Assembly (NCBI GenBank): GCA_019313695.1
Contig: JAFDAS010000002.1
Coordinates: 1 to 56,852, forward strand
DNA: 56,852 nt
Reading direction: 5' to 3'
Source: Deltaproteobacteria bacterium
GTDB lineage: Bacteria > Desulfobacterota > Syntrophia > Syntrophales > UBA2210
Every line of letters starts with the position of its first letter. The first letter of the stretch is position 1. This document shows, in pieces, positions 3,378-20,492 of this stretch. Under the pieces are notes generated by a model. The model did not search any database. It was not told where the DNA came from and was given only the letters and a program-made list of their open reading frames with translations. The position numbers and the translations under genes are program-made.

Positions 3378-3842
3378 GTGAAGATTCTGTTTGTTTGCAC
3401 CGCCAATATCTGCCGGAGCTTTATGGCGGAGCGCGTATTCAGGAAAAGATCGGAGAAGAACGGCCGTGGCGACATCGAGGTGTCGTCGGCGTCCCTCTTT
3501 AATATGGAAGGAGCGCCGGCCGATCCCGGGGCTGTTGGTATTCTGGAAGAAAAGGGGTTTGATGGTTACGGCCATAAGTCAAGGCTGTTGACAGAAGATA
3601 TGGTCGCTGAAACGGATATGATACTTGTAATGGAACAACAGCACCGGGAGATGCTCATTGAAAACTATCCAGACGCAAAAGGCAGGGTATTTCTCTTAAA
3701 ACCATTTTCCAGTGGGTGCAGCCAGCTGAACAGCGGTGATATGGATGATATCAAAGATCCGTACAATCTGTCTAACTATCATTACAGGCTTTGCTTTGCC
3801 GAGATATACCTGGCCGTCGAGGGAGTGCTGAAATGTATTTAG
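3378..3842 (+). CDS. Low-molecular-weight protein-tyrosine phosphatase
   Basis: 154 residues. The N-terminal P-loop CTANICRS carries the nucleophile Cys7 and Arg13 of the C(X)5R signature, and the general-acid Asp is in KDPYN near the C-terminus. Such phosphatases (Wzb/Etp type) dephosphorylate the tyrosine cluster of BY-kinases that control capsule or exopolysaccharide polymerisation; the likely substrate is the Wzc protein at 16440-18695. The start is GTG, 4 bases after the preceding stop, and the 3' end overlaps the next gene by 10 bases, so translation is probably coupled. Its distance from the main polysaccharide locus is explained by the intervening RiPP-like operon. Confidence 0.93.
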   Translation: MKILFVCTANICRSFMAERVFRKRSEKNGRGDIEVSSASLFNMEGAPADPGAVGILEEKGFDGYGHKSRLLTEDMVAETDMILVMEQQHREMLIENYPDAKGRVFLLKPFSSGCSQLNSGDMDDIKDPYNLSNYHYRLCFAEIYLAVEGVLKCI

Positions 3843-4630
3843 AATACTGGGGTCTTAAAAGATTTCCCTTTGAAAACGTCCCGGACCCGGATTTCATGTA
3901 CTATTCGCCCGAGCATGAAGAGGCGCTGGCCCGGCTTCTCTATGTGGTAAGAGGGAATAAAGGCATGGTTATGATTACCGGAGAGATCGGCAGCGGGAAA
4001 ACTACTTTAAGCAGGGTTTTGCTGCAACAGCTTTCCGATGTGAAGTTTGATATAGGTTTGATGACGAATCCGATTCTTAAGCCGTTGGATTTTTTAAGAG
4101 AAATTCTCTATAATCTTGGCTTGAACCCGGCCAGGAATGCCGCTAAGTCTCACCTGCTGAAGATATTAAATGAGAAACTGCTGGAAAACCTCCGGAATGG
4201 GATGTCAACTCTACTGATATTTGATGAAGCGCATTTAATTTCCAGGAAAACCTTTGAAGAAATACGACTGCTGATGAACTTCCAGTTGAATGACAGATTT
4301 ATGCTGACCATTATTCTGCTGGGTCAGCCGGAGCTGAAAGATATCGTCAAGGAAATAAAACAATTGGACCAGAGAGTCGCCACAAGGTATCACTTAAATC
4401 CCCTTAATTTTGTTGAAACGCGGAACTATATAAAAATACGTCTGGAGAAGGCCGGTTCAACCAATAATATAATTGACCCGCAGGCGTTAGATGACATATA
4501 CGATTATTCCAAGGGAATACCAAGGCTGATAAATAACATTTGCGATATTAGCCTTATGGTAGGATTTGTTTCGAAGGCGGAGATTGTTGATTCCAAAATT
4601 ATCAAAGAAGCCGCACGGGATCAGGGCTAA
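3833..4630 (+). CDS. ExeA-like AAA ATPase of polysaccharide/exosortase loci
   Basis: 265 residues starting MYLEYWGLKRFPFENVPDPD, a signature N-terminus of the ExeA/GspA-like ATPases found in exopolysaccharide (often exosortase-linked) loci. Walker A GEIGSGKT is at residues 50-57 and Walker B LLIFDEAH at about 127-134; a sensor-like ILLGQPEL follows. The ATG overlaps the 3' end of the phosphatase gene by 10 bases, and an in-frame upstream start inside that gene was rejected. No peptidoglycan-binding domain is fused to it, unlike true ExeA. Role unproven: ATP-driven assembly or regulation of the export machinery. No exosortase gene is visible in this window. Confidence 0.85.
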   Translation: MYLEYWGLKRFPFENVPDPDFMYYSPEHEEALARLLYVVRGNKGMVMITGEIGSGKTTLSRVLLQQLSDVKFDIGLMTNPILKPLDFLREILYNLGLNPARNAAKSHLLKILNEKLLENLRNGMSTLLIFDEAHLISRKTFEEIRLLMNFQLNDRFMLTIILLGQPELKDIVKEIKQLDQRVATRYHLNPLNFVETRNYIKIRLEKAGSTNNIIDPQALDDIYDYSKGIPRLINNICDISLMVGFVSKAEIVDSKIIKEAARDQG

Positions 4631-5345: not shown

Positions 5346-6521
5346 CTAAACTTTAAAGACGCGTGACAACACCTCTCTGATTCGGTTAAGATAGTGCTTG
5401 TAATTCATGTCGGCCTCGGAGATATAGCTTCTCTGGGCCAGGATATCCTTCGGTGGGAATAGTGTCCTCCCCACGAACTTCAACTTTTTCACCAGGCCTT
5501 TATTCATGGATAAATGTATCAGATAGCTGAGGCCGGGTGTGCGTTTATTTTCTGCAGCTTTGCGCATGAATATCTTTTCGGGAATACTGAATCTTTTGGG
5601 CTTAAGTTTCAGCAAAACATCTTCCGGGACGTTAGCTTTAATAAAATAATGCGAAAAATAGAGGGTTGTATAGACCATTTTATTAAGGTTAAATTTGATG
5701 GTGTCTCTGACCAGAAGGTCCCAGTCCAGATCTTCCCCATAATAATTGATGGCTCTGTCAATATCACAAAAATAGCTGAGTTTGTTTAGGGAGTGAGTAA
5801 CCCGGAGGGCATGTTCGGACAGGTGTATAATAAGATGGTGCGGAGACATAACCCATGTTTTGGTGTCTGCGATATTTGTCCTTACGGCATCACGCCAGAT
5901 ATCCTCCATTTCAATATATCCGATATACGATTCGTTGGGTATTGTTGAATTGACGAAGTGCCAGTGGACATGAAAAGAAGGGGAGTTTTTAGCGGGGTTT
6001 CTGTAGTCGAGAGTTGTCAGGTAGGTTGAGTTAAAATCAACATAGTCAACAGATCGATCTGCCGGGGAATATCCCAGCTTTTTCAACAGTTCATCTGTTT
6101 GATAGAGATCTCCATTTTTTACAAGGAGGTCAACGTCCGACATGGGGCGCAGGGCCAGATTGCCGTATGCCGTTTCGGCAAGAGCCGCTCCTTTCATCAC
6201 GATTACCTGAATTCCTCTCTGATGAAACAGACCGAGAACCTTTTTAAGCTCTTCAAAGATAAGGGCATTTTTTGTGGCGCTCAGGTAGTAATCTTTTTTC
6301 AGCTCTTCTGTTACATATTCTGGAATATCGTAATGCGCTGCAATCTCGGGAAGGTGGCTGAAAACCAGGGGTGAGACGCTTTCACCTCTCGCCTTTTCCA
6401 GAAAAACGTTCCAGTCAATATCCAGTAGTTCCGGAAGATTAGTTTTTTCCGTCCTGCAGCAGTAAAGCAGTAAGTGATCTTCGCTTGACCAGGTCAATTC
6501 AATTCCCCAAAATGTCGCCAC
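5346..6521 (-). CDS. Nucleotidyltransferase family protein (NTP_transf_5 type)
   Basis: 391 residues. The block VMKGAALAETAYGNLALRPM followed by SDVDLLV (residues 108-134) is the G-x-x-L/A-x-x-x-Y-x-x-x-x-x-R-x-x-x-D-x-D-L-L-V pattern of the uncharacterised nucleotidyltransferase family PF14907; the two Asp of DVD would bind metal. Members of this family occur in lasso-peptide clusters, where in pseudomycoidin-type pathways one acts after a kinase to decorate the phosphorylated C-terminal serine. Here it shares the operon with an HprK-like kinase and a precursor ending in Ser, so the same role is plausible. The start is GTG at 6521, 15 bases after the hicA stop. Confidence 0.85.
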   Translation of the reverse strand: MATFWGIELTWSSEDHLLLYCCRTEKTNLPELLDIDWNVFLEKARGESVSPLVFSHLPEIAAHYDIPEYVTEELKKDYYLSATKNALIFEELKKVLGLFHQRGIQVIVMKGAALAETAYGNLALRPMSDVDLLVKNGDLYQTDELLKKLGYSPADRSVDYVDFNSTYLTTLDYRNPAKNSPSFHVHWHFVNSTIPNESYIGYIEMEDIWRDAVRTNIADTKTWVMSPHHLIIHLSEHALRVTHSLNKLSYFCDIDRAINYYGEDLDWDLLVRDTIKFNLNKMVYTTLYFSHYFIKANVPEDVLLKLKPKRFSIPEKIFMRKAAENKRTPGLSYLIHLSMNKGLVKKLKFVGRTLFPPKDILAQRSYISEADMNYKHYLNRIREVLSRVFKV

Positions 6522-6536
6522 TATTTTCTTTATAGT

Positions 6537-6770
6537 CTAAAGGCCCAAATAGTTGACCAGATCTTTTTTCTCTAATCCACTCTGTTTTAATATGTCGCTA
6601 AGTGTCCCTTTAGCTAAAGTTTTATGTAAAGGAACGATTGTCTTAAAAGTTTTTCCCGGAGTAACCTTTCTTAAGGAAATATGGCTCCCTTTTTGCCTTA
6701 CTTTTTCAAAACCGGCTTTTTGCAACACTTTGATTAAGTCGGCTCCTGAGATTGTTGGCAGTTTGGTCAT
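6537..6770 (-). CDS. hicA: HicA-type mRNA interferase toxin (pair 1)
   Basis: 77 residues with the YcfA/HicA dsRBD-like fold: SGADLIKVLQKAGFEKVRQK, then GSHISLRK with the catalytic His, then TIVPLHKTLAKGTLSDILKQ. HicA toxins cleave mRNA until blocked by HicB. Its ATG lies one base after the upstream hicB stop (TAAAATG), so the pair is co-translated. It is embedded between the peptidase-GNAT gene and the nucleotidyltransferase gene of the RiPP-like operon, with 15 bases to the next start. Confidence 0.9.
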   Translation of the reverse strand: MTKLPTISGADLIKVLQKAGFEKVRQKGSHISLRKVTPGKTFKTIVPLHKTLAKGTLSDILKQSGLEKKDLVNYLGL

Positions 6771-6771
6771 T

Positions 6772-6996
6772 TTATGCTGTTATTTCTAATGAGGTGAAAA
6801 TCGGTTCGGATTTTTCGACAGGCATATCTTCGGTTCCAAAACTTTCAATATACAATTCAATTGCTTCTTGAAGATTTTTTCTGGCTTCCTCGAAAGTTTT
6901 TCCTTGAGATGTAACACCAATCTCTATAGATCGAGCTACGAACCAGTCTTTTTCCTGTGTAATAATAGCGCTCAATTTATATGCCAAATGAACCAC
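6772..6996 (-). CDS. hicB: HicB-type antitoxin (pair 1)
   Basis: 74 residues with the HicB core: KDWFVARSIEIGVTSQGKTF then EEARKNLQEAIELYIESF, an RNase H-like fold lacking catalytic residues. No separate DNA-binding helix-turn-helix or ribbon-helix-helix follows, so it is the short HicB form. The annotated GTG is only one base from AAAGGAG; a TTG three codons downstream, giving MAYKLSAII, has better spacing and may be the true start. Gene order (antitoxin first) matches pair 2 at 10475-10971. Confidence 0.88.
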   Translation of the reverse strand: MVHLAYKLSAIITQEKDWFVARSIEIGVTSQGKTFEEARKNLQEAIELYIESFGTEDMPVEKSEPIFTSLEITA

Positions 6997-7053: not shown

Positions 7054-8106
7054 TTACCAAGATTTGATATCCTTTACCAGAACAATTCTCAGGCGTGAGG
7101 TTTTTTTAGCCTCTTCTTGAAGCTGTTCGTTCAGTTCAGGAATGGAAATTTGGCGGAACCCTGATTTTCGATAAAGGTTGTTCGCGGGTTTGGCATCCTC
7201 AAAGACCAGAAGCTTAATTTCTGAAGCGCCATGTTTCGCTGCTATATCCGCAGCCATATTTGTCAATTTTTCGCCGATTCCCATTCTCCGATAGCGCCAA
7301 TTTACCTTCATACCAAAAAGCCACCAGCCTGTATAAGGATAGTCACTTTCTTGAAACTCGGAAAGAGTTACACTGCCGATAACCATATCTTTTTGCTTTG
7401 CTACAAGCCAGTATCCTGAATCTTTGGGATTTTTGAGCTGTTCATACAAGGCATTCGCGGGATTTTCTGACTCAGGCTGTTGGTTATACCTGTAAAGCAG
7501 GGAGAGCGAAGAGGCATCGTCAGGAGTGGCAATTTTATATCGAAAGTTCTCTTTCACCAATTTTTTGGCTAAGAAGCAGTAAAACTCAACACTTTGAAGT
7601 TTCTCCAAAATAATGCCCAGTAATCTACGCCCTTTGTGCTTTACTTTACTTCCTATGGGATAAGTCCACCGGCTGAATGGGGATAGCCAAGCAAAGAATA
7701 AGTTGATTATCCGATGAAGTTTTGTATTTAGTTTTCTTTCTCTCCCGTTTCTTTCAATGGCTGTTACCCGGCCAAGGATCCTTTGAGTATCTACCCCTTC
7801 AGGTTGACCGAAGGCGGCATCTCCTTTAATGAAAAATACCGTTCCGCTACCCTTTATTGTTTTTCGGATCACACGGTGTACGATTGCCTGATCATCCATA
7901 GTCTTATATAAGACCACATCACCGACTCTGATGGGGAAATTCCACAGTGGGCTTACAGTAATCAGATCTTCGTCCTGAATAAAAGGCCGCATACTGAAGC
8001 CCTTTGCCTGAAAACGGATGGATGTGCCTCTTTCGAGGAGATCGTTGCTCAATTTTAATAGACTGGAGTTGCTTAAAGGGACGGGGCCTTTCACTTGTCT
8101 AAACAT
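7054..8106 (-). CDS. S26-like signal peptidase domain fused to a GNAT acetyltransferase
   Basis: 350 residues in two domains. The N-terminal part (about 1-130) is S24/S26 peptidase-like: FSMRPFI with nucleophile Ser38, VGDVVLYK, then IVHRVI with His77 where bacterial enzymes have the catalytic Lys, and FIKGDA. This is the Ser-His arrangement of SipW/ER-type signal peptidases. A hydrophobic stretch around INLFFAWLSPF may be a membrane anchor. The C-terminal part (about 190-345) is GNAT: VNWRYRRMGIGEKLTNMAAD with the acetyl-CoA loop, then PANNLYRKSGFRQI. It overlaps the upstream kinase gene by 8 bases. Likely roles are leader removal and acylation of the new amine of the peptide; this is inference. 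Confidence 0.8.
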   Translation of the reverse strand: MFRQVKGPVPLSNSSLLKLSNDLLERGTSIRFQAKGFSMRPFIQDEDLITVSPLWNFPIRVGDVVLYKTMDDQAIVHRVIRKTIKGSGTVFFIKGDAAFGQPEGVDTQRILGRVTAIERNGRERKLNTKLHRIINLFFAWLSPFSRWTYPIGSKVKHKGRRLLGIILEKLQSVEFYCFLAKKLVKENFRYKIATPDDASSLSLLYRYNQQPESENPANALYEQLKNPKDSGYWLVAKQKDMVIGSVTLSEFQESDYPYTGWWLFGMKVNWRYRRMGIGEKLTNMAADIAAKHGASEIKLLVFEDAKPANNLYRKSGFRQISIPELNEQLQEEAKKTSRLRIVLVKDIKSW

Positions 8107-8980
8107 TTCTTACAAAATCGATGATTCTTTTATCCGGCAGGAAATTAAGCTCATAACAGGGCAGCTTGTTTGCCATACGATCAAGCAGGCCTAATGTGTA
8201 ATCCATTCCTTTTTGATCCCACAGTGGGGGGAAAGACCGGGTTAGAAACATTGAAATTGCCTCTGCGCCCTTTTTGGGGACAGTAGAATTCTCTTTTCCA
8301 TGTTTCAGAAAAAATACTTTACGAATTGGCATTCCCTTCGGTGACACTTCCCTAAAATCACCGTGCCATGGTGTTCCGTACATCCAGAACTGCCCGTTCT
8401 TTTCCCTTACAATAATCCTGTCATCATTCAATACTGTTGCGCCGCTTTCAAACCATAATTTTGCAATTGTTGATTTGCCGTGAGTTGATTTCCCTGAAAA
8501 AAGATGACCATAACCGTTATCATCAATAACAGCACAAGCATGTAACAATACTCCTTTACGAAGTGATGCGAGTAGGGTTATCATCAGGATCTGATTTAAG
8601 GGATATCCTAAAAGATCTGGAAAAATACGATTTGGGATATTGCCTCTGATATAGACGTTACCGGATTTAAGATCTGGCTCTAGGATAACCATGGTTTCAG
8701 GAAGAAGACCTGACTCCATGGATTCGTTCTGCAGGACATATTTTCCGAGGTTGCTGTAAAGAGACCAGTTGCTATCCGAATCGAATATCTTTCTTTTTTC
8801 TTTTATTTCAGGAATACGGTTGTGGTGTACACGAAGCTTTATCTCAGCGCTATAGCCTGTGGTAAGCTCATCGTTGATATTTTTAACTTCAAATTCAGGC
8901 AGAGGCCGATCAAAAAGAAAAGATATGCTAATATCAGCTATAACTACCGTAAATTCTTTCGGTTCTTTTCCATTTACCAC
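8099..8980 (-). CDS. HprK-like serine kinase of RiPP clusters
   Basis: 293 residues. A P-loop FSGKSTHGKST (about 161-171) is followed by the NDDR block (about 185-188), as in the catalytic half of HPr kinase. The residues around LLHACAVI and GTPWHGDF are typical of the short HprK homologues found beside PqqD proteins. No HPr or PTS genes are nearby. In lasso systems such as paeninodin, homologous kinases phosphorylate the C-terminal serine of the precursor, and the peptide encoded just upstream here ends in Gly-Ser. The start is GTG at 8980 with GGAAGGA 11 bases upstream; the 3' end overlaps the peptidase-GNAT gene. Confidence 0.85.
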   Translation of the reverse strand: MVNGKEPKEFTVVIADISISFLFDRPLPEFEVKNINDELTTGYSAEIKLRVHHNRIPEIKEKRKIFDSDSNWSLYSNLGKYVLQNESMESGLLPETMVILEPDLKSGNVYIRGNIPNRIFPDLLGYPLNQILMITLLASLRKGVLLHACAVIDDNGYGHLFSGKSTHGKSTIAKLWFESGATVLNDDRIIVREKNGQFWMYGTPWHGDFREVSPKGMPIRKVFFLKHGKENSTVPKKGAEAISMFLTRSFPPLWDQKGMDYTLGLLDRMANKLPCYELNFLPDKRIIDFVRNV

Positions 8981-9152
8981 AATATTATTATCCTTCCGGA
9001 AGTTTTTCTTGAATCACCATTTTTTGTGGGTTTCATGGCGTAAAAGCAAAATTACGGGAGTTTTTTTAATTACAATTGATTTAAGTGACAATCAAATTTG
9101 ACCGGGAGCGCACTCGCAAGTCCCGCCCTGTAGGCGAGGGGCTTCACTTAAA

Positions 9153-9344
9153 CTATGAACCCACAATATTTTGGCAGCTGCTGGCGGCAAGTCCAATTTT
9201 ACACGGCGATTTCCCGGCCCCACCTTTTGCACTACCAGCGACAGTTGCCTTACATGCAGCTAAAACAGCGTCCTCGATTTCCAGCTTGACCTGACTTACT
9301 TGTGGCTTTTTATAGTATTTATGGGTTTTTTCTTTTGGCTTCAT
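9153..9344 (-). CDS. Candidate RiPP precursor peptide, 63 residues
   Basis: A 63-residue peptide with a very good ribosome site (AAGGAG about 7 bases before ATG). The N-terminal half is lysine-rich and leader-like: MKPKEKTHKYYKKPQVSQ, then VKLEIEDAVLAACK. The C-terminal half is small-residue-rich (TVAGSAKGGAGKSP) and carries three Cys in all, at 31, 48 and 57, finishing SSCQNIVGS with Ser63 as the last residue. It lies 19 bases downstream of the radical SAM gene and upstream of the kinase gene, in the same operon as a PqqD-like chaperone. No cleavage site can be fixed; a change from leader to core somewhere after AVLAA is a guess. The 172-bp gap after it may separate expression levels. Confidence 0.8.
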   Translation of the reverse strand: MKPKEKTHKYYKKPQVSQVKLEIEDAVLAACKATVAGSAKGGAGKSPCKIGLAASSCQNIVGS

Positions 9345-9363: not shown

Positions 9364-10449
9364 CTAAGATTTCTTTAAATTAAATGCCTCTGCCCGAAGA
9401 TGGGCAATCTGACAGAGATATTCTACAGGGGCTTCCGGATTACCGTTCTCCAGCCATCCCCAGCCCGGGCATTGACCACACAAAGATATTAATTCACACT
9501 TGCCGCACGGATAGTCTCCTTCAGGTTTCAGGGTTAAAAATTCAGGAATAGATTTACTCCAGCCCTCTTCAAAAGGGCCACAACGCAAATCATGATTCTG
9601 AAACCTGGTCATTTCACAGGCGCTCATTTTTCCGTATGGATCTATATGGAATGTGGAGATGCCGGCACCGCAGATATAAAGATTATCGGATTCAGATGGA
9701 CCTGCAAACTTTTCGCAAAACTCTCGCCATTCTTTAACCCTTTTCTCATCAGACAAATCCAACTTTACCACCTCTTCAGGTGACAACCTGAATTTGCAAG
9801 GTGCTTTAGAGCCGTCCAGTCTTGGGTTAAGTGCGGGGTCAAAACGGAACTTCATCCCCAATCCTTCAGCGTATTCTTTTATCTGCCAGAGATCATCTTT
9901 GTTCAAGGTCATTGCCATGGTTTTCAACCCAAGGGTAATCTTCCGCTCCAAAAGCAGGTCAATACCCCTTTTGCATCGCTTAAATGAGCCGGAAATTCCG
10001 GTTACTCTTTCATGCGTTTCACTTGTTACACCATATAAAGTTATCTCCACTTTATACGGCGGATATTGAACAAGATAGTCGGCAATCTCCGGGGTAATAA
10101 GAGTCCCATTTGTAAACAACGTAACGACGAACCCTTTCTTCTTCGCGTATGTATATATTTCCAGAAAGTCTTCCCGTAAGAGGGGTTCTCCGCCGGTTAT
10201 CAAAAGCCACAGGCATCCAGCTTCTGCGATCTGGTCAAGGATATTGAATACTTCTTCAGTCGTCAGTTCTTTCTCGATTGCCTCCTGATCATTTGCCGGC
10301 AGGTTGCAGTAACAATGTGCGCATCGCAGATTGCAGCGGAAGGTAAGCTCAAACGATCCGCCGAGCGGAATCCTCCTTGTCACAGCCTTGTCATATAGCC
10401 GTTCCCCAAACTGAGCAAGGCTAATCTCCGGTATATGCGGACATTCCAT
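9364..10449 (-). CDS. Radical SAM/SPASM peptide-modifying enzyme
   Basis: 361 residues. The radical SAM cluster motif FRCNLRCAHCYC places the CxxxCxxC cysteines at 39, 43 and 46, followed by the GGEPLLR motif. The C-terminal third is a SPASM domain with many Cys (CGAGISTFHIDPYGKMSACE, then YPCGKCELISLCGQCPG), which binds auxiliary Fe-S clusters. Such enzymes make thioether, C-C or epimerised residues in ribosomal peptides. With a PqqD chaperone upstream and a Cys-containing precursor immediately downstream, the substrate is almost certainly the 63-residue peptide. The ATG lies inside a 52-bp sequence that is repeated at 10997-11046. Confidence 0.92.
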   Translation of the reverse strand: MECPHIPEISLAQFGERLYDKAVTRRIPLGGSFELTFRCNLRCAHCYCNLPANDQEAIEKELTTEEVFNILDQIAEAGCLWLLITGGEPLLREDFLEIYTYAKKKGFVVTLFTNGTLITPEIADYLVQYPPYKVEITLYGVTSETHERVTGISGSFKRCKRGIDLLLERKITLGLKTMAMTLNKDDLWQIKEYAEGLGMKFRFDPALNPRLDGSKAPCKFRLSPEEVVKLDLSDEKRVKEWREFCEKFAGPSESDNLYICGAGISTFHIDPYGKMSACEMTRFQNHDLRCGPFEEGWSKSIPEFLTLKPEGDYPCGKCELISLCGQCPGWGWLENGNPEAPVEYLCQIAHLRAEAFNLKKS

Positions 10450-10477
10450 GATTCTTACTCTTCTGTTATGGCTTTTA
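10426..10477. repeat. Direct repeat flanking hicBA, copy at the radical SAM start
   Basis: About 52 bp covering the start of the radical SAM gene and a remnant of the pqqD-like 3' end. Read on the minus strand the remnant encodes IKAITEE-stop, against INAITEG-stop of the intact gene. It matches 10997-11046 in all but about six positions and one 2-base gap. The hicA stop codon lies inside this repeat. Confidence 0.85.
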
Positions 10478-10702
10478 TACTTTCTGAAGCAATTGAAAGT
10501 ACTTCTCTCTGCTCATCCCGATTATACGCATGTTGTTTTTGATAACGAATGCCGGCACTTCTTTGTGTTTCGGTATGACCACAGGCCTGATAGCTCCGGG
10601 ATAATGATAAATAACATGATCACCTTTTGTCCGAGCATACACGCACCCGGCCATTTCAAAAATCTTGATCTGAACTTGATAATGAGTCGGCTTAATTTTC
10701 AT
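10475..10702 (-). CDS. hicA: HicA-family toxin (pair 2)
   Basis: 75 residues of the YcfA/HicA family: THYQVQIKIFEMAGCVYART, then KGDHVIYHYPG with the putative catalytic His, then RPVVIPKHKEVPAFVIKNNM and a C-terminal SREKYFQLLQ helix. It differs clearly from pair 1, so it is a separate acquisition rather than a recent duplicate. The ATG overlaps the hicB stop by one base. It is co-oriented with the RiPP-like operon, and its stop codon is supplied by the flanking direct repeat. Confidence 0.85.
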   Translation of the reverse strand: MKIKPTHYQVQIKIFEMAGCVYARTKGDHVIYHYPGAIRPVVIPKHKEVPAFVIKNNMRIIGMSREKYFQLLQKV

Positions 10703-10971
10703 CAGGCAGACACTTCGATAGGCGTAAATCCAACCAACTCTTTGCGCGCGCTCAATGTGTCGGCACTAATTTCCTCCAATCCGCAATCTTCAATAAACTG
10801 CTCAAATGTCCCCATCTTTTTCGTTTCTTCAATATTGATTGTAATTGCTTCCAGGAGATTTTTTTTTGCCTGCTGGACATCCTCGCCGCAGGAAGAAATA
10901 TCCAATTCAGGACAATATGAAACATACATGTTGCCCTCTTTCCATACCTCTTCAGTCAAACGTATTTTCAT
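10702..10971 (-). CDS. hicB: HicB-family antitoxin (pair 2)
   Basis: 89 residues when started at ATG 10971 (MKIRLTEEVWKEGNMYVSYC), which has AAGGAG eight bases upstream; an upstream in-frame start would run into the direct repeat and lacks such a site. The core PELDISSCGEDVQQAKKNLL then EAITINIEE is the HicB fold. The C-terminal ADTLSARKELVGFTPIEV is an unassigned tail. It forms a co-translated pair with the downstream hicA and separates the PqqD-like gene from the radical SAM gene. Confidence 0.85.
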   Translation of the reverse strand: MKIRLTEEVWKEGNMYVSYCPELDISSCGEDVQQAKKNLLEAITINIEETKKMGTFEQFIEDCGLEEISADTLSARKELVGFTPIEVSA

Positions 10972-10996
10972 GGGTTTAACTCCTTCGTAATCTGGT

Positions 10997-11046
10997 CTCC
11001 GATATGAGGACATTCCATAATTCTTAGCCTTCTGTTATGGCGTTTA
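10997..11046. repeat. Direct repeat flanking hicBA, copy at the pqqD end
   Basis: About 50 bp covering the last codons and stop of the PqqD-like gene, followed on the minus strand by a ghost of the radical SAM start (ATGGAATGTCCTCATAT, encoding MECPH, as in the real gene). It is the partner of 10426-10477. Confidence 0.85.
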
Positions 11047-11314
11047 TTTCTTCTAATTGCATGAGGTGTTCCACGATATCCTTTTCGGCTTCTTCAGGCG
11101 TTACTTCGAATTCTTCAATCAGCTTTTCTTTTATTTTCTCGACTTTCGTTTTGCCGTCGATCAGCTCCCAAATGTACGCGGCGGTTTCATTCAGAGTATA
11201 GATGCTTTCCAAGTCACCTACGTTTTGCCTGATGGGAACCAGGATAAATTCATCGGCTATCTTTCTGGATACGATGGAATCGCTCTTGCTGTAAACTTTA
11301 TCAAGAAAATTCAT
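11024..11314 (-). CDS. PqqD-like peptide chaperone (RiPP recognition element)
   Basis: 96 residues of the PqqD winged-helix family: DEFILVPIRQNVGDLESIYT, LNETAAYIWELIDGKTKVEK, then LIEEFEVTPEEAEKDIVEHL. The LNETAAYIWELIDG block is the hallmark of these domains, which bind RiPP leader peptides and present them to the modifying enzyme. It is the first gene of the minus-strand operon, behind a good sigma-70-type promoter at 11352-11380. Its 3' end is duplicated next to the radical SAM gene, which suggests that the two genes were adjacent before hicBA was inserted. Confidence 0.9.
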   Translation of the reverse strand: MNFLDKVYSKSDSIVSRKIADEFILVPIRQNVGDLESIYTLNETAAYIWELIDGKTKVEKIKEKLIEEFEVTPEEAEKDIVEHLMQLEEINAITEG

Positions 11315-11957: not shown

Positions 11958-13787
11958 ATGGAAAGCTTTTTTGCATATATAAAACATGGCCTTTCCCGGA
12001 AACAGTCCGAAGATCCTCTGGCCGGAGAACGTGGTCATTCCGTAATCAGGGAAAACCTTAAGAATTTGCACCCGTTTATAAAGCGGCACTGGAAGAAGGG
12101 TCTTTGGGGTGCACTTATTATTGCAGCAACCTCTCTGCTCAGTTTTCCGGCGCCCCTTATTTTCCGCTATCTTGTTGACGACGTGATACTGAGCCGTCAG
12201 ATGGCTCTTCTTGCGGGTACAATCATTTTGCTTGCGGTGATTTTGTTGGTTTGGAAGCTTATGGAGCTATGGGGGCAGTTCTATTTCAAACGGCTGGAGC
12301 AGGAGATTATTCTCGATGTCCAGCAAGCTCTTTTTGACAGGACACTTCGCTTTCCCAAGGCGTTTTTCGACAGGAATAAAACCGGCTATCTCATGTCACG
12401 GCTTTCCTCTGATGTGGAGGAACTGCGCTGGTTTTTTTCCGGCACTATTGTTTACATAATCAGCAATGTGCTCCGCTTCATCGGTGGTCTGGCATTTCTC
12501 TTCTATCTCGAATGGAGGCTTGCCATCGGGGTTCTCATCGTTATCCCGGGGCTTTTTTACAGCATTCGCTACTTTTCCGGGAAAATACATGTCTTGAGTC
12601 ATGAGGGTATGGAGCAGGATGCCAATGTGTCGAGCCGCCTCCAGGAATCAATTGCCGCCATTCCACTGATAAAGGCATTTTCTGCCGAGGATCGCGCGGG
12701 AAAAGGCATCATAGCCGAATTGAAGAAGGCCTTTCAGATATCGCTGGAAGAGACAACAGTCAGTTCAGTGGCAGGTCTGGTGATCAATTCCATGCCGTGG
12801 CTTGCCAAGGGCTCTGTCCTGGCATTAGGGGCCTACTGGGTTATTAAGGGGCAGTGGACCCTTGGTTCTCTCCTCGCTTTTCTGGCATATCTTGGTTACG
12901 TCTTCGGACCGGCGCAATTTCTGGCATCGGCCAATCTTCAGCTTCAAAAGGCGCTCGCCGCCCTGGAGAGAGTATCCGCACTTTTTGATATCACTGTTGA
13001 GGAGAATGTGGGTGTCGGCAGGAAGGTTGAGAAATTGAAGGGAAAGATTGAATTCAGGGAAGTTACTTTTTCTTACGATGAGCGGGAGCCAGTGCTCGAA
13101 AATGTTTCCCTTGTAATAGAACCGGGGGAGCGGGTTGCGCTTGTGGGGCCAAGCGGTGTGGGAAAGACCACCCTTTTGAGCCTTGTGCTCTGTTTCTACA
13201 GACCTGTCTCCGGTGAAATTTTCTTTGATAATCTACCGGTGTCGGAATGCGATGTAAGTTCCCTGCGAAGCCGGATTGGTTATGTTTCTCAGGATACATT
13301 GCTTTTGTCCGGCACTATTGCTGAAAATCTCTGTTACGGCAATCCGGAGGCAAAAAAAGCGGATATCGTCAAGACCGCCAAAACAGCCGGCATACATGAT
13401 TTTATTGAGAGCCTGCCGGCCGGTTATGAAACCCTTATCGGTGAAAAAGGAGTTAACCTGTCGGAAGGGGAAAAGCAGAGAATGGCCCTTGCCAGAGCAC
13501 TCATCAAAGATCCCGATATCCTGGTTCTGGATGAGCCGGCCTCCGCGCTGGACAGCGTGACGGAAAGGTCAATCTTTCAGTCGCTTCCCGACCTTGTAAA
13601 GGGCAAGACCCTTATTGTGGTTGCCCACAGGCTCTCCACAATCATGGATTCCGACAGGATTTTCCTTCTGAACGAGAACAGACTTGTGGCGGTTGGCACC
13701 CATCTAACACTTCTGGAAACAAACGATTATTATCGCTTTCTGGTTGCCTGCCAGCAAACGGACGACAGGCAGATAGACAGGTTGTAG
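11958..13787 (+). CDS. ABC transporter, fused permease-ATPase (peptide/lipid exporter type)
   Basis: 609 residues. The N-terminal membrane domain (about 50-330) has the six-helix exporter layout beginning KKGLWGALIIAATSLLSF, with the conserved coupling region FDRNKTGYLMSRLSSDVEEL. The ATPase domain follows from about 355: Walker A GPSGVGKTT (about 395-403), signature LSEGEKQRM (a variant of LSGGQ), Walker B ILVLDEPAS and the H-loop AHRLST. No C39 peptidase domain is present. It probably exports the RiPP product, being the only exporter beside that operon, although it is transcribed from the opposite strand and could instead serve the polysaccharide locus. It converges with the HD-GYP gene, with one base between the stops. 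Confidence 0.88.
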   Translation: MESFFAYIKHGLSRKQSEDPLAGERGHSVIRENLKNLHPFIKRHWKKGLWGALIIAATSLLSFPAPLIFRYLVDDVILSRQMALLAGTIILLAVILLVWKLMELWGQFYFKRLEQEIILDVQQALFDRTLRFPKAFFDRNKTGYLMSRLSSDVEELRWFFSGTIVYIISNVLRFIGGLAFLFYLEWRLAIGVLIVIPGLFYSIRYFSGKIHVLSHEGMEQDANVSSRLQESIAAIPLIKAFSAEDRAGKGIIAELKKAFQISLEETTVSSVAGLVINSMPWLAKGSVLALGAYWVIKGQWTLGSLLAFLAYLGYVFGPAQFLASANLQLQKALAALERVSALFDITVEENVGVGRKVEKLKGKIEFREVTFSYDEREPVLENVSLVIEPGERVALVGPSGVGKTTLLSLVLCFYRPVSGEIFFDNLPVSECDVSSLRSRIGYVSQDTLLLSGTIAENLCYGNPEAKKADIVKTAKTAGIHDFIESLPAGYETLIGEKGVNLSEGEKQRMALARALIKDPDILVLDEPASALDSVTERSIFQSLPDLVKGKTLIVVAHRLSTIMDSDRIFLLNENRLVAVGTHLTLLETNDYYRFLVACQQTDDRQIDRL

Positions 13788-13788
13788 C

Positions 13789-14859
13789 CTAAACGATCTG
13801 ATTTGAGGGAAGTTCTTCTTCGCTGACAGCGGCTGTGACGTATAAAATGGGATGTTCTTCGAGATTGATTACGTTTTTACCAGATGCTTTATTTCCATGT
13901 CCGTTAAAGGTGATTTTAATAGTTGGTTTAAGTGGATGGTCCTTGCTGGTTGCAATTACTTTGCCTATTTCCGAATTGTTGAGCCTGACATAGCTTCCGA
14001 CAGGGAAAACTCCCATTTCATCAAGAAATGCTTTGATTATCTTTGAAGAAAACAGAAAATTCTTTGATCCAACCAGCTCTTTCACCGAAAAATGCTGTGC
14101 CAATGCTTTTCTGTACGGGCGGTTGTGGATCATGGCATCAAAGGTATCAACAAGCCCCATTATTTTTGCGTATTCGCATATCTCATTCCCCTCTAACTGC
14201 GCGGGATAACCACTGCCATTTTCTCTTTCATGATGTTCCCGGGCGACCCGGGGCAGCATCGGGTGCTCAGTCTGAAAACGGGACAGGATGTCCCCCCCGA
14301 TTTCGGCATGTTTTTTTATGATATCTAACTCAGCGTCTGTCAGCGTTCCTCTTTTTTCCGTTATCTTCTCCGGCATCTTGAAGAGTCCTATGTCGTAGAA
14401 GAGTGCGGCCAGTCCAAGTTCAAGGAGTTTCTTCCTGGAGTATTTTAAGCCTGCTCCAACCTTGAGTGCATATACCATGACCTTGATCAGATGATAAGTT
14501 AAGTAATCTTCATTATCATTCTTGGACAGGATTGTTGCCTGGTAGAACTTTTCAACCAGATCAGGCGTGTTTACGATATGGGCTACGGTATCAACGGCCT
14601 GCTTGATGTCGAACGGCTCATCATTTTTGACCAGTCCCTGAACTTTCTTAAGATAATCCACAATGGTTGCACAAAGCTGCTCCATGTATTCAGTGTCTTT
14701 TTCCGCAGGCAGGGCGGCTAACTCTGAAGATGTGCTGAATTCCTTTATGGCGCTGAAACGTAAAGAGGCATCAGTCTTTTTTGGATCTGTCAGGTCTTTT
14801 GTGCCGTCTTCATCCTTTTTTTTGACACTGTCCTTTATGATATCGGAGTATCTTACCAT
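13789..14859 (-). CDS. HD-GYP domain protein with a substituted HD motif
   Basis: 356 residues. The C-terminal half carries the HD-GYP family blocks: a His at about 123 (YHLIKVMVYAL), HAEIGGDIL (His184), EHHERENGSGYP (209-219) and GLVDTFDAMIHNRPYR. The HD signature itself reads LFYDIGLFKMP, so the metal-binding His is Tyr155 and the usual following Lys is Leu; catalysis of cyclic-di-GMP hydrolysis is therefore doubtful. The first 100 residues are low in recognisable motifs, and no receiver domain is seen. It is divergent from the polysaccharide locus that starts at 15211, so a c-di-GMP-sensing or regulatory role there is plausible. Confidence 0.85.
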   Translation of the reverse strand: MVRYSDIIKDSVKKKDEDGTKDLTDPKKTDASLRFSAIKEFSTSSELAALPAEKDTEYMEQLCATIVDYLKKVQGLVKNDEPFDIKQAVDTVAHIVNTPDLVEKFYQATILSKNDNEDYLTYHLIKVMVYALKVGAGLKYSRKKLLELGLAALFYDIGLFKMPEKITEKRGTLTDAELDIIKKHAEIGGDILSRFQTEHPMLPRVAREHHERENGSGYPAQLEGNEICEYAKIMGLVDTFDAMIHNRPYRKALAQHFSVKELVGSKNFLFSSKIIKAFLDEMGVFPVGSYVRLNNSEIGKVIATSKDHPLKPTIKITFNGHGNKASGKNVINLEEHPILYVTAAVSEEELPSNQIV

Positions 14860-15210
14860 AAAATTACCACGTTACTGTGTTGAAAACGTACAGCATTTGT
14901 ATTTTTTCGCAACTCGGCGCAGGGATATTCAAATACTCGGCAAAAATTCTCACATCCCTATTTTGTGCAATTACCCGTTTAAAATCAATATGTTACAAAA
15001 CCCATCTGCGGTGAACTTTATAACATTTACAAGTTTTGCAAGCACTTTACCTTGCAGCGCTTGGAATAATATATGATAACTTGTCCGAATTCAAGATAAA
15101 TATTGATTTTCTTTTCTTTTTTTGGTTTAACTGAGAAAAGTTTTTATGCAGTGATGTATAATTAAACCTGTGAGGGACTTGATGCAGGGTAAAATTAAGG
15201 AGAGATGTCT
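14860..15210 (+). promoter_or_regulatory. Divergent intergenic region with a candidate wza promoter
   Basis: This is 345 bp without a gene, between the HD-GYP gene and the export-lipoprotein gene. A perfect TATAAT (15157-15162) preceded by TG lies about 48 bases before the chosen start, but no good -35 element is at the right distance, so an activator may be needed. The rest is AT-rich with no clear operator that I can see. Confidence 0.35.
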
Positions 15211-16353
15211 ATGTCTTGCAGGACAGTAAATATGATTCTGGCATTGTTTGCGGGTTTTTGTGTTCTGTTTATTTCATCGTGTACCTTCGAGACAAGGGGG
15301 ATACCGGTGAAGGAATTCAGGCCTGCAGCGGCAGCTGAAGAGGCAGATACAAAACAGAAAAAAGAGATGGAAAAAGAGATTGTCAGGATGAGTCAGATTA
15401 CAGGAAACAGTGTATTTACAGAGATACGGGGTGTTTCTGAATACAGGATAGGTCCTGGCGATGTACTGATCATTACTTTCTGGGATGTAGCCAAATCCGT
15501 GCCGTATACCACTGTGGTCAGACCGGATGGGAAAATATCATATTCCTATATGGATGATATTGCAGTGGCTGGTCATACTTCTCACGAGGTGGATGAAATA
15601 TTGACGAAAGCGCTTAAAGAATATATCAGAAAGCCGAGGCTCGATGTTGTGGTAAAAGAGTATAGAAGCAAAAGTGCCCTGTTGTTTGGGCAGATAAACC
15701 GTCTTCAAACAGGGATTTCAGGCCCCGGAAAGTATCCGCTAATGGGCAAGACAAGGATACTTGATCTTATTGTAATAGCAGGAGGGCCAATTGCGGGTGA
15801 GGAGTTTGGAAACGCGGATCTCAGGAAAGTGGAAGTGGTAAGAAGGGGAAAAAGCTATACAGTCAACCTTTATGAGGCGATGTTCAAGGGAGATATGAGT
15901 CAGAATATCGTTATAGATAATGGTGATATCGTAACAGTGCCGGAGCTTCCGACTTACGGGGAAAGGGTGTATGTTTTTGGAGAGGTCAACTCTCAGGGCA
16001 TATACAGGCTCAAGGATGCCTATGATCTTCTGGCGGCTGTATCCAAGGCAGGCGGCACGACGAGGGTGGCTGTGGATTCAGATGTAAAAATTATCAGGGG
16101 CTACGAGAAAGATCGGAACAAGCCGATTATACTTGCCGCGAACCTTAATGAAATCTTAAAGAAGGGGGATATAGCTCAGAATATTTCCCTTCAGGATGGT
16201 GATGTGGTTTATGTGCCAAGGACAGCGATAGGCGATATTAATGAGTTTATCGCAAATACAGTGCCGCTTCTGGATTATCTGCTCTATCCTGATACATACA
16301 GAGACGCGTATTTTAATCCAGACACCATGCTTCGTTTTAACAAGCTTAATTAG
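15211..16353 (+). CDS. Polysaccharide export outer-membrane lipoprotein (Wza type)
   Basis: 380 residues. A lipoprotein signal (MILALFAGFCVLFISSC, lipobox ISSC) is followed by the polysaccharide-export domain (YRIGPGDVLIITFWDVAKSV, then VRPDGKISYSYMDDIAVAG). Two SLBB-like repeats follow, around KYPLMGKTRILDLIVIAGGP and VYVFGEVNSQGIYRLKDAYD. It would form the outer-membrane or periplasmic channel for the polysaccharide. I chose ATG 15211 over ATG 15205 because AAGGAG (15197-15202) is eight bases from the former and only two from the latter. It is the first gene of the plus-strand polysaccharide locus, upstream of the matching Wzc kinase. Confidence 0.92.
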   Translation: MSCRTVNMILALFAGFCVLFISSCTFETRGIPVKEFRPAAAAEEADTKQKKEMEKEIVRMSQITGNSVFTEIRGVSEYRIGPGDVLIITFWDVAKSVPYTTVVRPDGKISYSYMDDIAVAGHTSHEVDEILTKALKEYIRKPRLDVVVKEYRSKSALLFGQINRLQTGISGPGKYPLMGKTRILDLIVIAGGPIAGEEFGNADLRKVEVVRRGKSYTVNLYEAMFKGDMSQNIVIDNGDIVTVPELPTYGERVYVFGEVNSQGIYRLKDAYDLLAAVSKAGGTTRVAVDSDVKIIRGYEKDRNKPIILAANLNEILKKGDIAQNISLQDGDVVYVPRTAIGDINEFIANTVPLLDYLLYPDTYRDAYFNPDTMLRFNKLN

Positions 16354-16439
16354 TTAAAGGATAACAGCTAATCCGCAAGGCCCAAAGGTCTGTAAAATAG
16401 TCGACCACTTGACTACTCAACCAAGGGGGTTTTCCCAGT

Positions 16440-18695
16440 ATGGCGATACAATATGATTTGAACCTCAGAGATTACTGGCGTGTTCTCAGAAAAAGGAAGA
16501 TTATTATCATCTTTACCATGGTTGCCATGGGAGTTTTCAGCTTTTTGTTTTCGATTATGCAGCAGCCCGTTCCTCTGTATCAGGCAACTGCCAGCGTAAA
16601 GGTTGAGCAAAGCGGTTCCATCACAGGTCTTTATATCCAAACAGTTTCCTGGTCACAGACAGATTATATGCAGACCCAGGCAGCCATAATAAAAAGCTAT
16701 TATGTTATGGAAACTGTCGCAAAGAAGCTCGGCCTTATACCTTCTGATCTTCCATCCGAGAAAGTGCGTGCCAGTCAGAAGTATCAAAGTATCATGACAG
16801 ATCTGAAAAAAAATGTAGAAACAGAGCAGGAGGGTTACAGCAACATCATTAATATACTGGTAACTTGGGAAGACCCTGTGTTTGCCCAGCGGATGGCCAA
16901 TACCATAGCCCATGTTTACAAGGAACAGCATGCCCTCGATCTTAACAAGAGAACATTCGAAGCGAAAAAGTTCATCGAGAGCCAATTGACAACCGTCAAG
17001 GAGAAATTAAGAAATTCCGAAGACGCGGTCAGAAAGTTCAGGGAAGAGAGCAAGTTGATTTCATTGAGCGCTCAGACCTCCAGAATGCTGGGCCAGATGA
17101 CGGCACTGCAGGCAGGCTATGAAAAGTCATTGGAAAGCTATAAAAAGATAAACAATATAGAAAAACTGCTTGAAAGGGCAGGAGACAAGCCACTGACCTC
17201 AGAGACAAGTTATTCTATTAAAGAGGCGCCCGGTCTTTACCAAAGTCTCAATAGCAGACTTGTTAGCCTCATGTTAAAGAGGGATTCGCTGCTTCTTATT
17301 TACACGGAGAAATATCCTCAGGTTGTAGAAATCAACGAGCAGATCCGTGAAATAGTGGTGAATATGACGGCCCAGCTTTCTTCCCAGAAAAAGATTCTTG
17401 CAGAAAGCATAAAAACCCTTAAAAAGAAAATTGATGAGATGGATGAGCAGATCAAGGCGCTGCCGGCGAAGGGGTTGGAACTGGCGAGACTGGAGCAAAG
17501 GGTAAAGCTCAACGGGGTGGTTTATACACTCCTGGAAAAGAAGTATCAGGAAGCACTTATAAAAGAGGCCGAAAAGATAGAAGAAGTACAGATAGTGAAG
17601 CCCGCCCTGGAACCGACCAAGCCTGTAAATCCGCCAAAGACAATGGCAACCGGCGTTGTCGGGACCATTATCGGATTAATCCTGGGCCTTCTATTTGCCT
17701 TTGTGGCGGAGGCTTTTGATACTTCCATAGGCGCCATCGAAGAAGTCGAAGAGATTACAGGTGTTCATGTTCTGGGTATTATTCCCCATGTCACAATCCA
17801 GGAGATCAAAGCAACACTTCTTGGTGGAGAAAGTCCGGAGGAGATGGATGACAAAACCGCGGAGAAGTATTCAAGAATCGTGTCGCATTTTGCGCCCAAA
17901 TCTACTCTGGCGGAAAGTTACAGGGCGCTCAGAACCAATTTGAGTTTTGCCGGCCTGGAAGGTGATATGAAGACAATTGCCTTTACCAGTTCCTCTCCGA
18001 GGGAAGGTAAAACTACGATAGTGATAAATCTCGCTGTTACCATGGCCCAGGCCGGCAACAAAGTCCTTCTTATAGATGGAGACATGAGGAAACCCATGGT
18101 TGCCAATGTGTTTGGCATTGAACCGGTGCCTGGTCTGTCGGATGTAATATTAGGAAACTATTCACTGGAAGATACTGTAAGGAGTGTTACGGATATCATG
18201 ACGGGGAAAATAAGCATGGAAGATATTATGAAAACCCCCGGAATGGATAACCTTTACATTGTAACGAGTGGAACAATCCCACCTAATCCTGCCGAACTGG
18301 CCGGTTCCGGCAGGATCGCGGAACTGATTGAACAGGCAAAATCTGAGTATGATATGGTTTTGATCGATACTCCTCCGCTTCTTTCCGCGACCGATGCCGC
18401 AATTTATGGCTCCATGGTGGATGGTGTAATTCTGGTGTATCGTGTGGGGATGGTTGGCCGGGCTGTCCTGAAAAGGGCGAAAGCTCAGCTCGATAATGTC
18501 AGGGCAAAGGTTATGGGCATTGTTCTTAACGGCCTGAAAGCGGAGATAAGTCCTGATTTTACCCGTCATGATTATTACAAATATTATTACTATTACGGTG
18601 GAGGAGAAGACAAAGGAGGGCAGGAAGAATCACTTTGGGGCAAGTTACTGTCGATTCCCGGCCGTCTGTCCGAATGGGTCCCAAAGAAGAAATAG
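16440..18695 (+). CDS. Chain-length determinant / BY-kinase (Wzc type)
   Basis: 751 residues. An N-terminal Wzz domain begins DLNLRDYWRVLRKRKIIIIF with the first membrane helix at about 20-40, a long periplasmic coiled-coil follows, and the second helix lies near 400-420 (MATGVVGTIIGLILGLLFAF). The cytoplasmic tyrosine kinase follows: Walker A SSPREGKTT (about 518-526), Walker A' VLLIDGDMRKP (about 541-552) and Walker B VLIDTPP (about 640). Near 707-716 is an autophosphorylation cluster HDYYKYYYYYGGG. It controls polymer length and export, partnering the Wza lipoprotein; the phosphatase at 3378 is its likely antagonist. The Tyr cluster is followed by about 30 residues rather than being at the extreme C-terminus. 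Confidence 0.95.
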   Translation: MAIQYDLNLRDYWRVLRKRKIIIIFTMVAMGVFSFLFSIMQQPVPLYQATASVKVEQSGSITGLYIQTVSWSQTDYMQTQAAIIKSYYVMETVAKKLGLIPSDLPSEKVRASQKYQSIMTDLKKNVETEQEGYSNIINILVTWEDPVFAQRMANTIAHVYKEQHALDLNKRTFEAKKFIESQLTTVKEKLRNSEDAVRKFREESKLISLSAQTSRMLGQMTALQAGYEKSLESYKKINNIEKLLERAGDKPLTSETSYSIKEAPGLYQSLNSRLVSLMLKRDSLLLIYTEKYPQVVEINEQIREIVVNMTAQLSSQKKILAESIKTLKKKIDEMDEQIKALPAKGLELARLEQRVKLNGVVYTLLEKKYQEALIKEAEKIEEVQIVKPALEPTKPVNPPKTMATGVVGTIIGLILGLLFAFVAEAFDTSIGAIEEVEEITGVHVLGIIPHVTIQEIKATLLGGESPEEMDDKTAEKYSRIVSHFAPKSTLAESYRALRTNLSFAGLEGDMKTIAFTSSSPREGKTTIVINLAVTMAQAGNKVLLIDGDMRKPMVANVFGIEPVPGLSDVILGNYSLEDTVRSVTDIMTGKISMEDIMKTPGMDNLYIVTSGTIPPNPAELAGSGRIAELIEQAKSEYDMVLIDTPPLLSATDAAIYGSMVDGVILVYRVGMVGRAVLKRAKAQLDNVRAKVMGIVLNGLKAEISPDFTRHDYYKYYYYYGGGEDKGGQEESLWGKLLSIPGRLSEWVPKKK

Positions 18696-18730
18696 GTATG
18701 CTGAACTGAGCAGCGGCGGATACTTGAAAT

Positions 18731-19021
18731 ATGGGTGAAAGACGAAAATACAAGAAGGCAAAGAGAAAAGAGTCCACCTTTAAGAACGAATTGCGATATC
18801 TGGTTCTAATTACCTTTATTTGCCTTATACTTGGTTTTGTTCTGGCTTTCGTCACCGGCAATGTCCCGTCTTTTCTGGATAGAACGATTCAAAAGCAGGC
18901 GGATCGTATAGTTAGTGAAAAGGTGAAAGATGTTGAAAGTGAAATAATGGAAAAGGTCAAAAAAGAAAACATGGATGATGTTATTAAAAAGTATAAAGAT
19001 AAGGCAAAAGGCTTACGTTAA
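18731..19021 (+). CDS. Small single-pass membrane protein of unknown function
   Basis: 96 residues. A strongly basic N-terminus (MGERRKYKKAKRKESTFKNE) precedes one hydrophobic helix (about 25-45, LVLITFICLILGFVLAFV). A charged, helix-prone tail (VSEKVKDVESEIMEKVKKEN) follows and is probably a coiled coil on the periplasmic side. It is in the operon between wzc and the polymerase/ligase gene, 35 bases after wzc. No family recognised. The overall layout resembles the 115-residue protein at 3026, which precedes the tyrosine phosphatase. A role as accessory or anchor for the kinase complex is a guess. Confidence 0.75.
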   Translation: MGERRKYKKAKRKESTFKNELRYLVLITFICLILGFVLAFVTGNVPSFLDRTIQKQADRIVSEKVKDVESEIMEKVKKENMDDVIKKYKDKAKGLR

Positions 19022-19052
19022 CATGGCAAGCAGTCAGTAGTCTCCCGGTGAA

Positions 19053-20456
19053 ATGATAAGAACAGAAAATGGACAAATCGAAGCAAAATCAACATTCCTT
19101 TTACTTGCCCTCGTCATCCTGACAGGCCTTGGCGGTCTTCTTGTTGCCAAAGCATCCATAACCATATCTCTGCTCGTAGTAACGCTTTTTGCGCTTATTG
19201 TTGTCGGTTTCCTGAGTGCGGAAGTAGCGTTGTATCTTCTTATTGCGTCCATGCTCCTCAGTCCGGAGTTTATAGTGGGGGACCTGTTGGGCAAAGGAAC
19301 AGGTGAGCGAGGCGTTACCATTCGATTTGACGACATCCTGTTGATAGTTATAGGCCTTGGCTGGTTTGCAAAAAGCGCCATAAAAAAGGAGCTTGGTCTT
19401 TTTCTGAAGACTCCGCTGAACAGACCAATTGTACTCTATATTGTTATCTGTCTTGTATCAACCTTGATTGGATTCGCAATGGGCAGGCTTGAGTTAAAAA
19501 CGGGGTTATTCTATGTCTTAAAATACTTTGAATATTTCATCGTATATTTTATGGCGGTAAATCATCTAAGAGACAAGGAGCAGGTTAAGCGCTTTGTTGT
19601 GGTCATGCTGGCGGTTTGCATGGTTATTTGTGTTATCGCGATACTGCAGATACCTGCAGGCGGCAGGGTGACGGCGCCGTTTGAAGGTACGGCTGGTGGT
19701 GAGCCGAATACACTTGGCGGATATCTTGTTTTAATGCTTTCGATCACTCTTGGGCTTCTGGTAACATCGGATTCAATGAAAGGGAAAACATTTTTGGGAG
19801 TTCTGGTGATCTTGATTGCAATTTCACTTTTAGCAACTCTTTCCAGAAGTTCCTGGCTGGCAATGGGGCCTATGCTGCTTACCCTTATCTATTTCAGCAA
19901 GAGGAGGCTGGTAATCGTTGTTCCCTTGGTCATCATTATGTTAATTTTACCGTTTGTTATGCCGAAGGCAGTAAAAGAAAGGGCGCTTTTTACCGTTACA
20001 CAGAGACAACATATGGGACAGATAGAAATAGGCGGCATAAGGCTTGATACTTCTACTTCTGCAAGGGTAAAGGCTTGGAAACGTATTTTGACAACGGAGT
20101 TTATCGAGTATCCTGTTTTCGGCCGCGGTGTTGCTGCCTATGGCCTTATAGATGCGCAATATCCAAGGGTTTTAATTGAGACGGGAATGTTAGGTTTGGT
20201 TGCATTTTTAGCACTACTTTTTTTCATATACAAACACGCGTTGAGTACGTATCGAAATACCTCGGATCCCTTTTTAAACGGTGTTTCTCTTGGATATCTG
20301 GCAGGGTTTGTTGCCATGGCTATACATGCAATTGGGACAAATACCTTTGTTATCGTGCGCATCATGGAACCCTTCTGGTTTTTGACAGCTATTATCATTA
20401 CGATTCCCACGATAGAAGCAGGTGAAGTAGAGGCAGAAGTGTCCGTGAAAGGTTGA
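19053..20456 (+). CDS. O-antigen ligase/polymerase (Wzy/WaaL family)
   Basis: 467 residues with about ten hydrophobic segments. The family's large central loop carries conserved positions (LATLSRSSWLAMGPMLLTLI, then ARVKAWKRILTTEFIEYPVF followed by GRG). Such proteins either polymerise repeat units in the periplasm (Wzy) or ligate the finished chain; sequence alone does not decide. The position in a Wzx/Wzc locus that lacks another polymerase favours Wzy. Start ATG 19053 has a weak upstream site. Confidence 0.85.
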   Translation: MIRTENGQIEAKSTFLLLALVILTGLGGLLVAKASITISLLVVTLFALIVVGFLSAEVALYLLIASMLLSPEFIVGDLLGKGTGERGVTIRFDDILLIVIGLGWFAKSAIKKELGLFLKTPLNRPIVLYIVICLVSTLIGFAMGRLELKTGLFYVLKYFEYFIVYFMAVNHLRDKEQVKRFVVVMLAVCMVICVIAILQIPAGGRVTAPFEGTAGGEPNTLGGYLVLMLSITLGLLVTSDSMKGKTFLGVLVILIAISLLATLSRSSWLAMGPMLLTLIYFSKRRLVIVVPLVIIMLILPFVMPKAVKERALFTVTQRQHMGQIEIGGIRLDTSTSARVKAWKRILTTEFIEYPVFGRGVAAYGLIDAQYPRVLIETGMLGLVAFLALLFFIYKHALSTYRNTSDPFLNGVSLGYLAGFVAMAIHAIGTNTFVIVRIMEPFWFLTAIIITIPTIEAGEVEAEVSVKG

Positions 20457-20472
20457 AAATATACGCTTTTGT

Positions 20473-20492
20473 CATTCCCGCGCAGGCGGGAA
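20473..20492. repeat. Short palindromic repeat (GTCATTCCCGC family)
   Basis: ATTCCCGC-GCAG-GCGGGAAT hairpin followed by CCAGAAT, within the 164-bp gap between the polymerase and flippase genes. The GTCATTCC...GGAATCCAG words also occur in the elements flanking aspS, so it is probably a truncated member of that dispersed family. Confidence 0.6.

Follow-up and report, generated by a model that had tools for sequence, protein, structure and literature searches.

A radical-SAM-type RiPP locus with an HprK-like kinase and a precursor predicted to be phosphorylated at its conserved C-terminal serine

Introduction

Three lasso kinases, PadeK, ThcoK and PsmK, use a His-Lys-Asp-Asp set of residues to phosphorylate their precursors on the C-terminal Ser, and PsmN, which is annotated as a nucleotidyltransferase, is required for the addition of a hexose to the phosphate (PMC9266682). 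BsfK, an HprK-like lasso kinase of Bradymonas that is aided by an RRE protein, targets core Ser3, not the C-terminus, of a precursor that ends in Asp (PMC10368454). In the literature that we searched, C-terminal phosphorylation by HprK-like kinases is described only for lasso peptides, and no paper joined HprK with radical SAM RiPPs; subscription papers fell largely outside this search, so the novelty claimed below is provisional. The SynChlorMet (SCM) cassette likewise groups HprK-like, PqqD-like and radical SAM/SPASM genes. Ranthipeptide and sactipeptide systems (PapB, StsB, AlbA) combine a SPASM-type maturase with a Cys-bearing core, and we know of no HprK-like kinase among them.

Here, we describe a locus in a 56,852-nucleotide stretch of DNA (the window, meaning this whole stretch) that probably makes a non-lasso, radical-SAM-type RiPP whose precursor is phosphorylated on its C-terminal Ser, a reading based on gene content, conservation and analogy. 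Like the paeninodin/pseudomycoidin-type lasso clusters, the locus has an HprK-like kinase with the His-Lys-Asp-Asp set and a Ser-ending precursor, and it shares with them a PqqD-type RRE, a nucleotidyltransferase (present in some of those clusters) and a YxxPx[LV] leader (PMC9266682, PMC10368454). Unlike them, it has a radical SAM/SPASM maturase, a Cys-bearing core and a signal-peptidase-like gene, and it has no B2 protease, lasso cyclase or Asp/Glu for a macrolactam. At its C-terminus, the locus appears from its sequence to work as the phosphorylated lasso systems do. The resemblance to PapB, StsB and AlbA is weak, extending to the type of maturase and the Cys-bearing core, whereas the maturase scores far under the cut-offs of those families.

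Gene content of the locus

The features on which the analysis draws are as follows.

9153..9344, minus strand: 63-aa precursor, made up of a leader (residues ~1-32) and a short core that bears Cys and ends in Ser63
9156..9158, minus strand: Ser63 codon TCA, followed by a TAG stop; proposed phospho-acceptor
8099..8980, minus strand: HprK-like kinase, 293 aa, the sole copy found in the genome
8540..8542, minus strand: kinase His147, predicted catalytic His of the His-Lys-Asp-Asp set; 69/69 conserved and aligned with the HprK His
8468..8494, minus strand: kinase P-loop GKSTHGKST, residues 163-171
8417..8425, minus strand: kinase Asp186-Asp187-Arg188; D186 in 69/69, D187 as 63 Asp and 6 Glu
9364..10449, minus strand: radical SAM maturase, 361 aa, with a C-terminal Cys-rich SPASM-like region; best NCBIfam matches are other SPASM maturases, far below cut-off
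11024..11314, minus strand: PqqD-like RiPP recognition element (RRE), 96 aa; best NCBIfam match is the lasso PqqD chaperone, below cut-off
7054..8106, minus strand: signal-peptidase-like (S24/S26) domain with a Ser38/His77 dyad, fused to GNAT; candidate leader protease
5346..6521, minus strand: NTP_transf_5 nucleotidyltransferase, the only copy in the genome; candidate phosphate-capping enzyme
11958..13787, plus strand: MsbA-type ABC exporter without a C39 peptidase; possible exporter of uncertain membership, placed by position only

The precursor gene lies between the radical SAM/SPASM gene and the kinase gene, is preceded by an AGGAGA ribosome site and is separated from the preceding radical SAM gene by 19 nt. 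Its product carries the leader motif YxxPxV...EDAVLAACK, Cys31, Cys48 and Cys57, and it ends in ...SSCQNIVGS; it holds no Asp or Glu beyond residue 25, hence none past Cys31. The leader and the terminal Ser are common to its homologues. ORF translation and domain matches bear out the first-pass annotation, which had described a precursor ending in Ser (NIVGS) beside an HprK-like kinase and a nucleotidyltransferase. The features by which a radical SAM RiPP is recognized are all present here, namely a maturase, an RRE and a short precursor with a conserved leader and a variable core. The 172 nt that separate the precursor from the kinase (8981-9152) contain an inverted repeat rich in G+C. It may act as an attenuator that sets expression of the precursor above that of the enzymes.

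The kinase has matches to PF07475 in Pfam (17.5 bits) and to TIGR04355 HprK_rel_B (30.6 bits) and TIGR04249 ScmC (28.4 bits) in NCBIfam, all below cut-off. A profile of its family matches the solved HprKs 2qmh and 1jb1 (E 1.9e-5), with the His, the P-loop Lys and the Asp-Asp-Arg aligned, and by these comparisons the product is a remote HprK-like protein. H147, K169 and D186 are invariant in 69/69 kinases on the window's side of the kinase tree, and the conserved H, K, D and D/E correspond to the His-Lys-Asp-Asp set found in lasso kinases whose target is a C-terminal Ser (PMC9266682). Their spacing is near-identical to that of BsfK (H148, K169, D186 and D187; PMC10368454). An AlphaFold2 model of the kinase, made from six sequences, reached a pLDDT of 32 and gives no structural support. 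In many clusters, the kinase and the radical SAM domain are one fused protein. Membership in the SynChlorMet cassette was considered and rejected on NCBIfam cut-offs (ScmC 28.4/125, ScmD 34.2/100, ScmE 78.6/400 and ScmF 83.6/400 bits).

Among loci of at least 11 kb, a PqqD-like RRE gene occurs in 53/55 and an NTP_transf_5 gene in 26/55. The nucleotidyltransferase of the window scores 165 bits against PF14907 (cut-off 31), and no significant solved relative was found for it by sequence. In 58 signal-peptidase-like sequences from 56 loci, the dyad His is present in 58/58 and the Ser in 54/58, and this Ser-His protein is a likely candidate for the leader protease.

Several observations concern the surroundings. 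Two HicB/HicA-like pairs lie within the cluster (10475-11013 and 6537-6996), 10475-10702 matching Pfam HicA_toxin, and a HicB-like ORF is similarly placed in the related loci L002 and L004. An AAA ATPase, an HD-domain protein, and export and chain-length genes are found at 3791-4630 and 13789-21000, and the cluster seemingly sits inside an exopolysaccharide (EPS) locus; L002 also has an exopolysaccharide setting, with the cluster in a different orientation relative to those genes. A decayed cluster (L026 1-4334, genome G013) has a truncated radical SAM gene, a broken kinase and no precursor that we could find, together with intact signal-peptidase/GNAT and NTP_transf_5 genes that are very similar to those of the window.

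Conservation of the C-terminal serine

The precursors of all six close relatives (L002-L006 and L020), namely five from a genome scan and G080, end in -GS, with cores and lengths that differ, and the kinase is present in each of the six. We tabulated precursors from regions around kinase and precursor matches in two phyla; among the 89 sequences, some of which had been detected by models extending over the C-terminus, the last residue is Ser in 83, Thr in 3, and Tyr, Asp and Gln in 1 each. After cores more than 60% identical were dropped, 64/69 ended in Ser and 3/69 in Thr. The Asp and Gln ends belong to two remote precursors (L209 and L203, respectively).

Because the tabulated precursors had in part been found by models covering the C-terminus, a leader-only model, rebuilt from ten leaders and blind to the C-terminus, was run on 17,753 ORFs. 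Its 72 matches end in Ser (69), Thr (2) or Tyr (1). Among ORFs of 200 aa or more in the same DNA, 8.8% have Ser as the last residue. The conservation of the terminal Ser is not due to chance (69/72 versus a background of 8.8%), with the qualification that these counts ignore ancestry and that binomial values overstate their significance. The sole leader-model match without a terminal Ser or Thr (L119 9876-10397, ...NLASY) adjoins an intact kinase. All six Ser codons occur at the precursor end (AGY 30, TCN 53), and this use of both codon boxes, together with the diversity of the neighbouring residues, argues for selection on the terminal residue itself.

We also applied a profile built from leaders only (39 leaders, A5) to 147 previously unused genomes from the phylum of G534. 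It found 12 new ORFs, with Ser as the last residue in 9 and Thr in 3. Of the Thr-ending ORFs, L295 is probably truncated: at 9667-9921 of L295, an in-frame TGA stands just ahead of the VGS end that its relative L294 keeps, and the Thr end is probably the product of a recent nonsense truncation. The kinase adjoins the precursor at L289-L292 and L294 of this held-out group. The phylum of G535 re-samples that of the window, with identical contig positions, and does not count as independent evidence. Many of the loci are from metagenome-assembled genomes, for which the taxonomic assignment may be in error. A terminal Ser unconserved in kinase-encoding clusters, which the first-pass annotation had named as grounds for abandoning its reading, was not seen in the tabulated, leader-only or held-out sets (83/89, 69/72 and 9/12 Ser).

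Two natural variants stand out. At L118, both precursors (12713-12934 and 15399-15560) end in Thr and the kinase is intact, so that the proposed acceptor has been exchanged from Ser to Thr in nature. At L121 (8180-8869), a shortened kinase ORF without the His and Asp-Asp motifs accompanies a precursor that still ends in GS, and an intact kinase is found at L120 of the same genome.

Co-occurrence of kinase and precursor

Among genomes of the window's phylum, the same 18 carry the precursor (E ≤ 1e-3) and the kinase (E ≤ 1e-35). In the second phylum, a kinase match is present in 36/37 genomes with a leader match (E ≤ 1e-3) and in 82/297 overall. The 37th genome with a leader, G667, has a contig that begins within the kinase gene. 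Contig ends explain the incomplete pairs, the kinase being cut in G667 and the precursor in G743. No kinase-less relatives were found, the weak precursor matches in G036, G291, G307, G350, G476 and G491 not being convincing members of the family. Ser-ending precursors do occur at loci without a local kinase (L090, L091 and L093-L096).

A quick tree built from 110 kinases contains a clade of 70 rows (SH-aLRT 97) that is accompanied almost only by Ser- or Thr-ending precursors. The neighbouring HprK clade (support 95) is SCM-like and differs in having YEPP-leader, repetitive precursors that end in Arg, Ile, Phe or Pro, whereas the precursors of some remoter kinases again end in Ser. Since the sister clade has no terminal Ser and remoter kinases have Ser-ending precursors, the trait follows the lineage of the kinase, and the presence of some HprK gene does not by itself predict it. 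The SCM-like loci L027, L028, L092, L099 and L102 combine HprK with YEPP-leader precursors, mostly of Cys/Gly-rich repeats, that do not have a terminal Ser.

Discussion

The near-invariant terminal Ser across kinase-carrying relatives strongly suggests that the kinase attaches a phosphate there, and phosphorylation of Ser63 is the best reading because of the analogy with the lasso kinases. In the pathway that we propose, the PqqD/RRE protein would bind the YxxPxV/L leader, and the radical SAM/SPASM enzyme would then modify the Cys-bearing core. The HprK-like kinase would phosphorylate the hydroxyl of Ser63 on the leader-bearing precursor, and the NTP_transf_5 enzyme, where encoded (as here), may extend or cap the phosphate. 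The Ser-His signal-peptidase homologue could remove the leader by cutting close to the conserved EEAVLxxC motif, and export would be the last step. This order of steps, and the product to which they would lead, are predicted from the genes, the leader, the terminal Ser/Thr, the catalytic residues and the co-occurrence described above. The first-pass annotation had taken it as the simplest reading that Ser63 is both phosphorylated and capped. Conservation of the terminal Ser and of the kinase residues supports phosphorylation as the probable fate of Ser63; capping is plausible as an optional step, given a gene present in 26/55 loci.

The terminal Ser could be kept for some other reason, such as recognition by the radical SAM enzyme, a protease or the exporter, or C-terminal cyclisation, while the kinase acts on another residue or protein. 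BsfK is a precedent for a non-terminal site (PMC10368454), Ser and Thr are common in the cores (10% and 8%), and the precursor of the window holds further Ser residues at 17, 38, 46, 55 and 56. We nevertheless consider this unlikely: none of the other last eight positions is dominated by Ser/Thr as the final one is, Thr, which is also a phospho-acceptor, is the main substitute there, kinase and precursor co-occur as adjacent genes, and many clusters encode kinase and maturase as one protein.

Phosphorylated Ser63 might instead be a mere intermediate, eliminated to dehydroalanine and lost to leave a C-terminal amide or an otherwise shortened end. Phosphorylation followed by elimination is the chemistry of class III/IV lanthipeptides, and position -2 of the precursors is mostly Gly or Ala; no lyase-like gene was recognised in the cluster, however, and a phosphate that is retained would accord with the NTP_transf_5 gene found at about half of the loci, which makes this course improbable.

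That the locus is a phosphorylated lasso peptide cluster can be rejected with near certainty. A PqqD nearest to the lasso PqqD, an HprK-like kinase, NTP_transf_5, an ABC transporter and a YxxPx[LV] motif as in lasso leaders (PMC10368454) all recall such clusters, as does an AsnB-like gene at 22434-24329. Yet this gene lies ~13 kb off, among EPS genes, and its protein reaches 77 of 525 bits as a lasso cyclase and scores higher as an asparagine synthase and an EPS amidotransferase; Transglut_core3 (B2, PF13471) was not found in the whole genome, which is 95% complete; and the precursor offers no Asp/Glu as macrolactam acceptor, either at core positions 7-9 or anywhere past Cys31. The remote HprK similarity might point to a regulatory HPr kinase/phosphorylase with no link to the peptide. 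We give this hardly any credence, since the kinase reaches 17.9 of the 240 bits required for hpr-ser, is tied by phylogeny and genomic position to the precursor family and is fused to radical SAM domains in relatives.

With phosphorylation of the C-terminal Ser as the preferred reading, a broader proposal can be made, for and against which we find the balance about even: these loci would represent previously undescribed, widespread radical-SAM RiPPs with a [YW]xxP...EEAVLxxCK leader, a phosphorylated C-terminal Ser (further capped in about half), leader removal by a signal-peptidase-I homologue, and one enzyme set that matures dispersed precursors in trans. If this is true, C-terminal phosphorylation would be a general RiPP tailoring module, found in a non-lasso family spanning several phyla. 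The many kinase/substrate pairs would lend themselves to studies of specificity, and a terminal Ser/Thr together with this kinase clade would provide a simple rule for spotting precursors. Finally, the conserved signal-peptidase-like gene points to a type of leader protease that goes unmentioned in a review of such RiPP enzymes from 2023 (PMC10885120).
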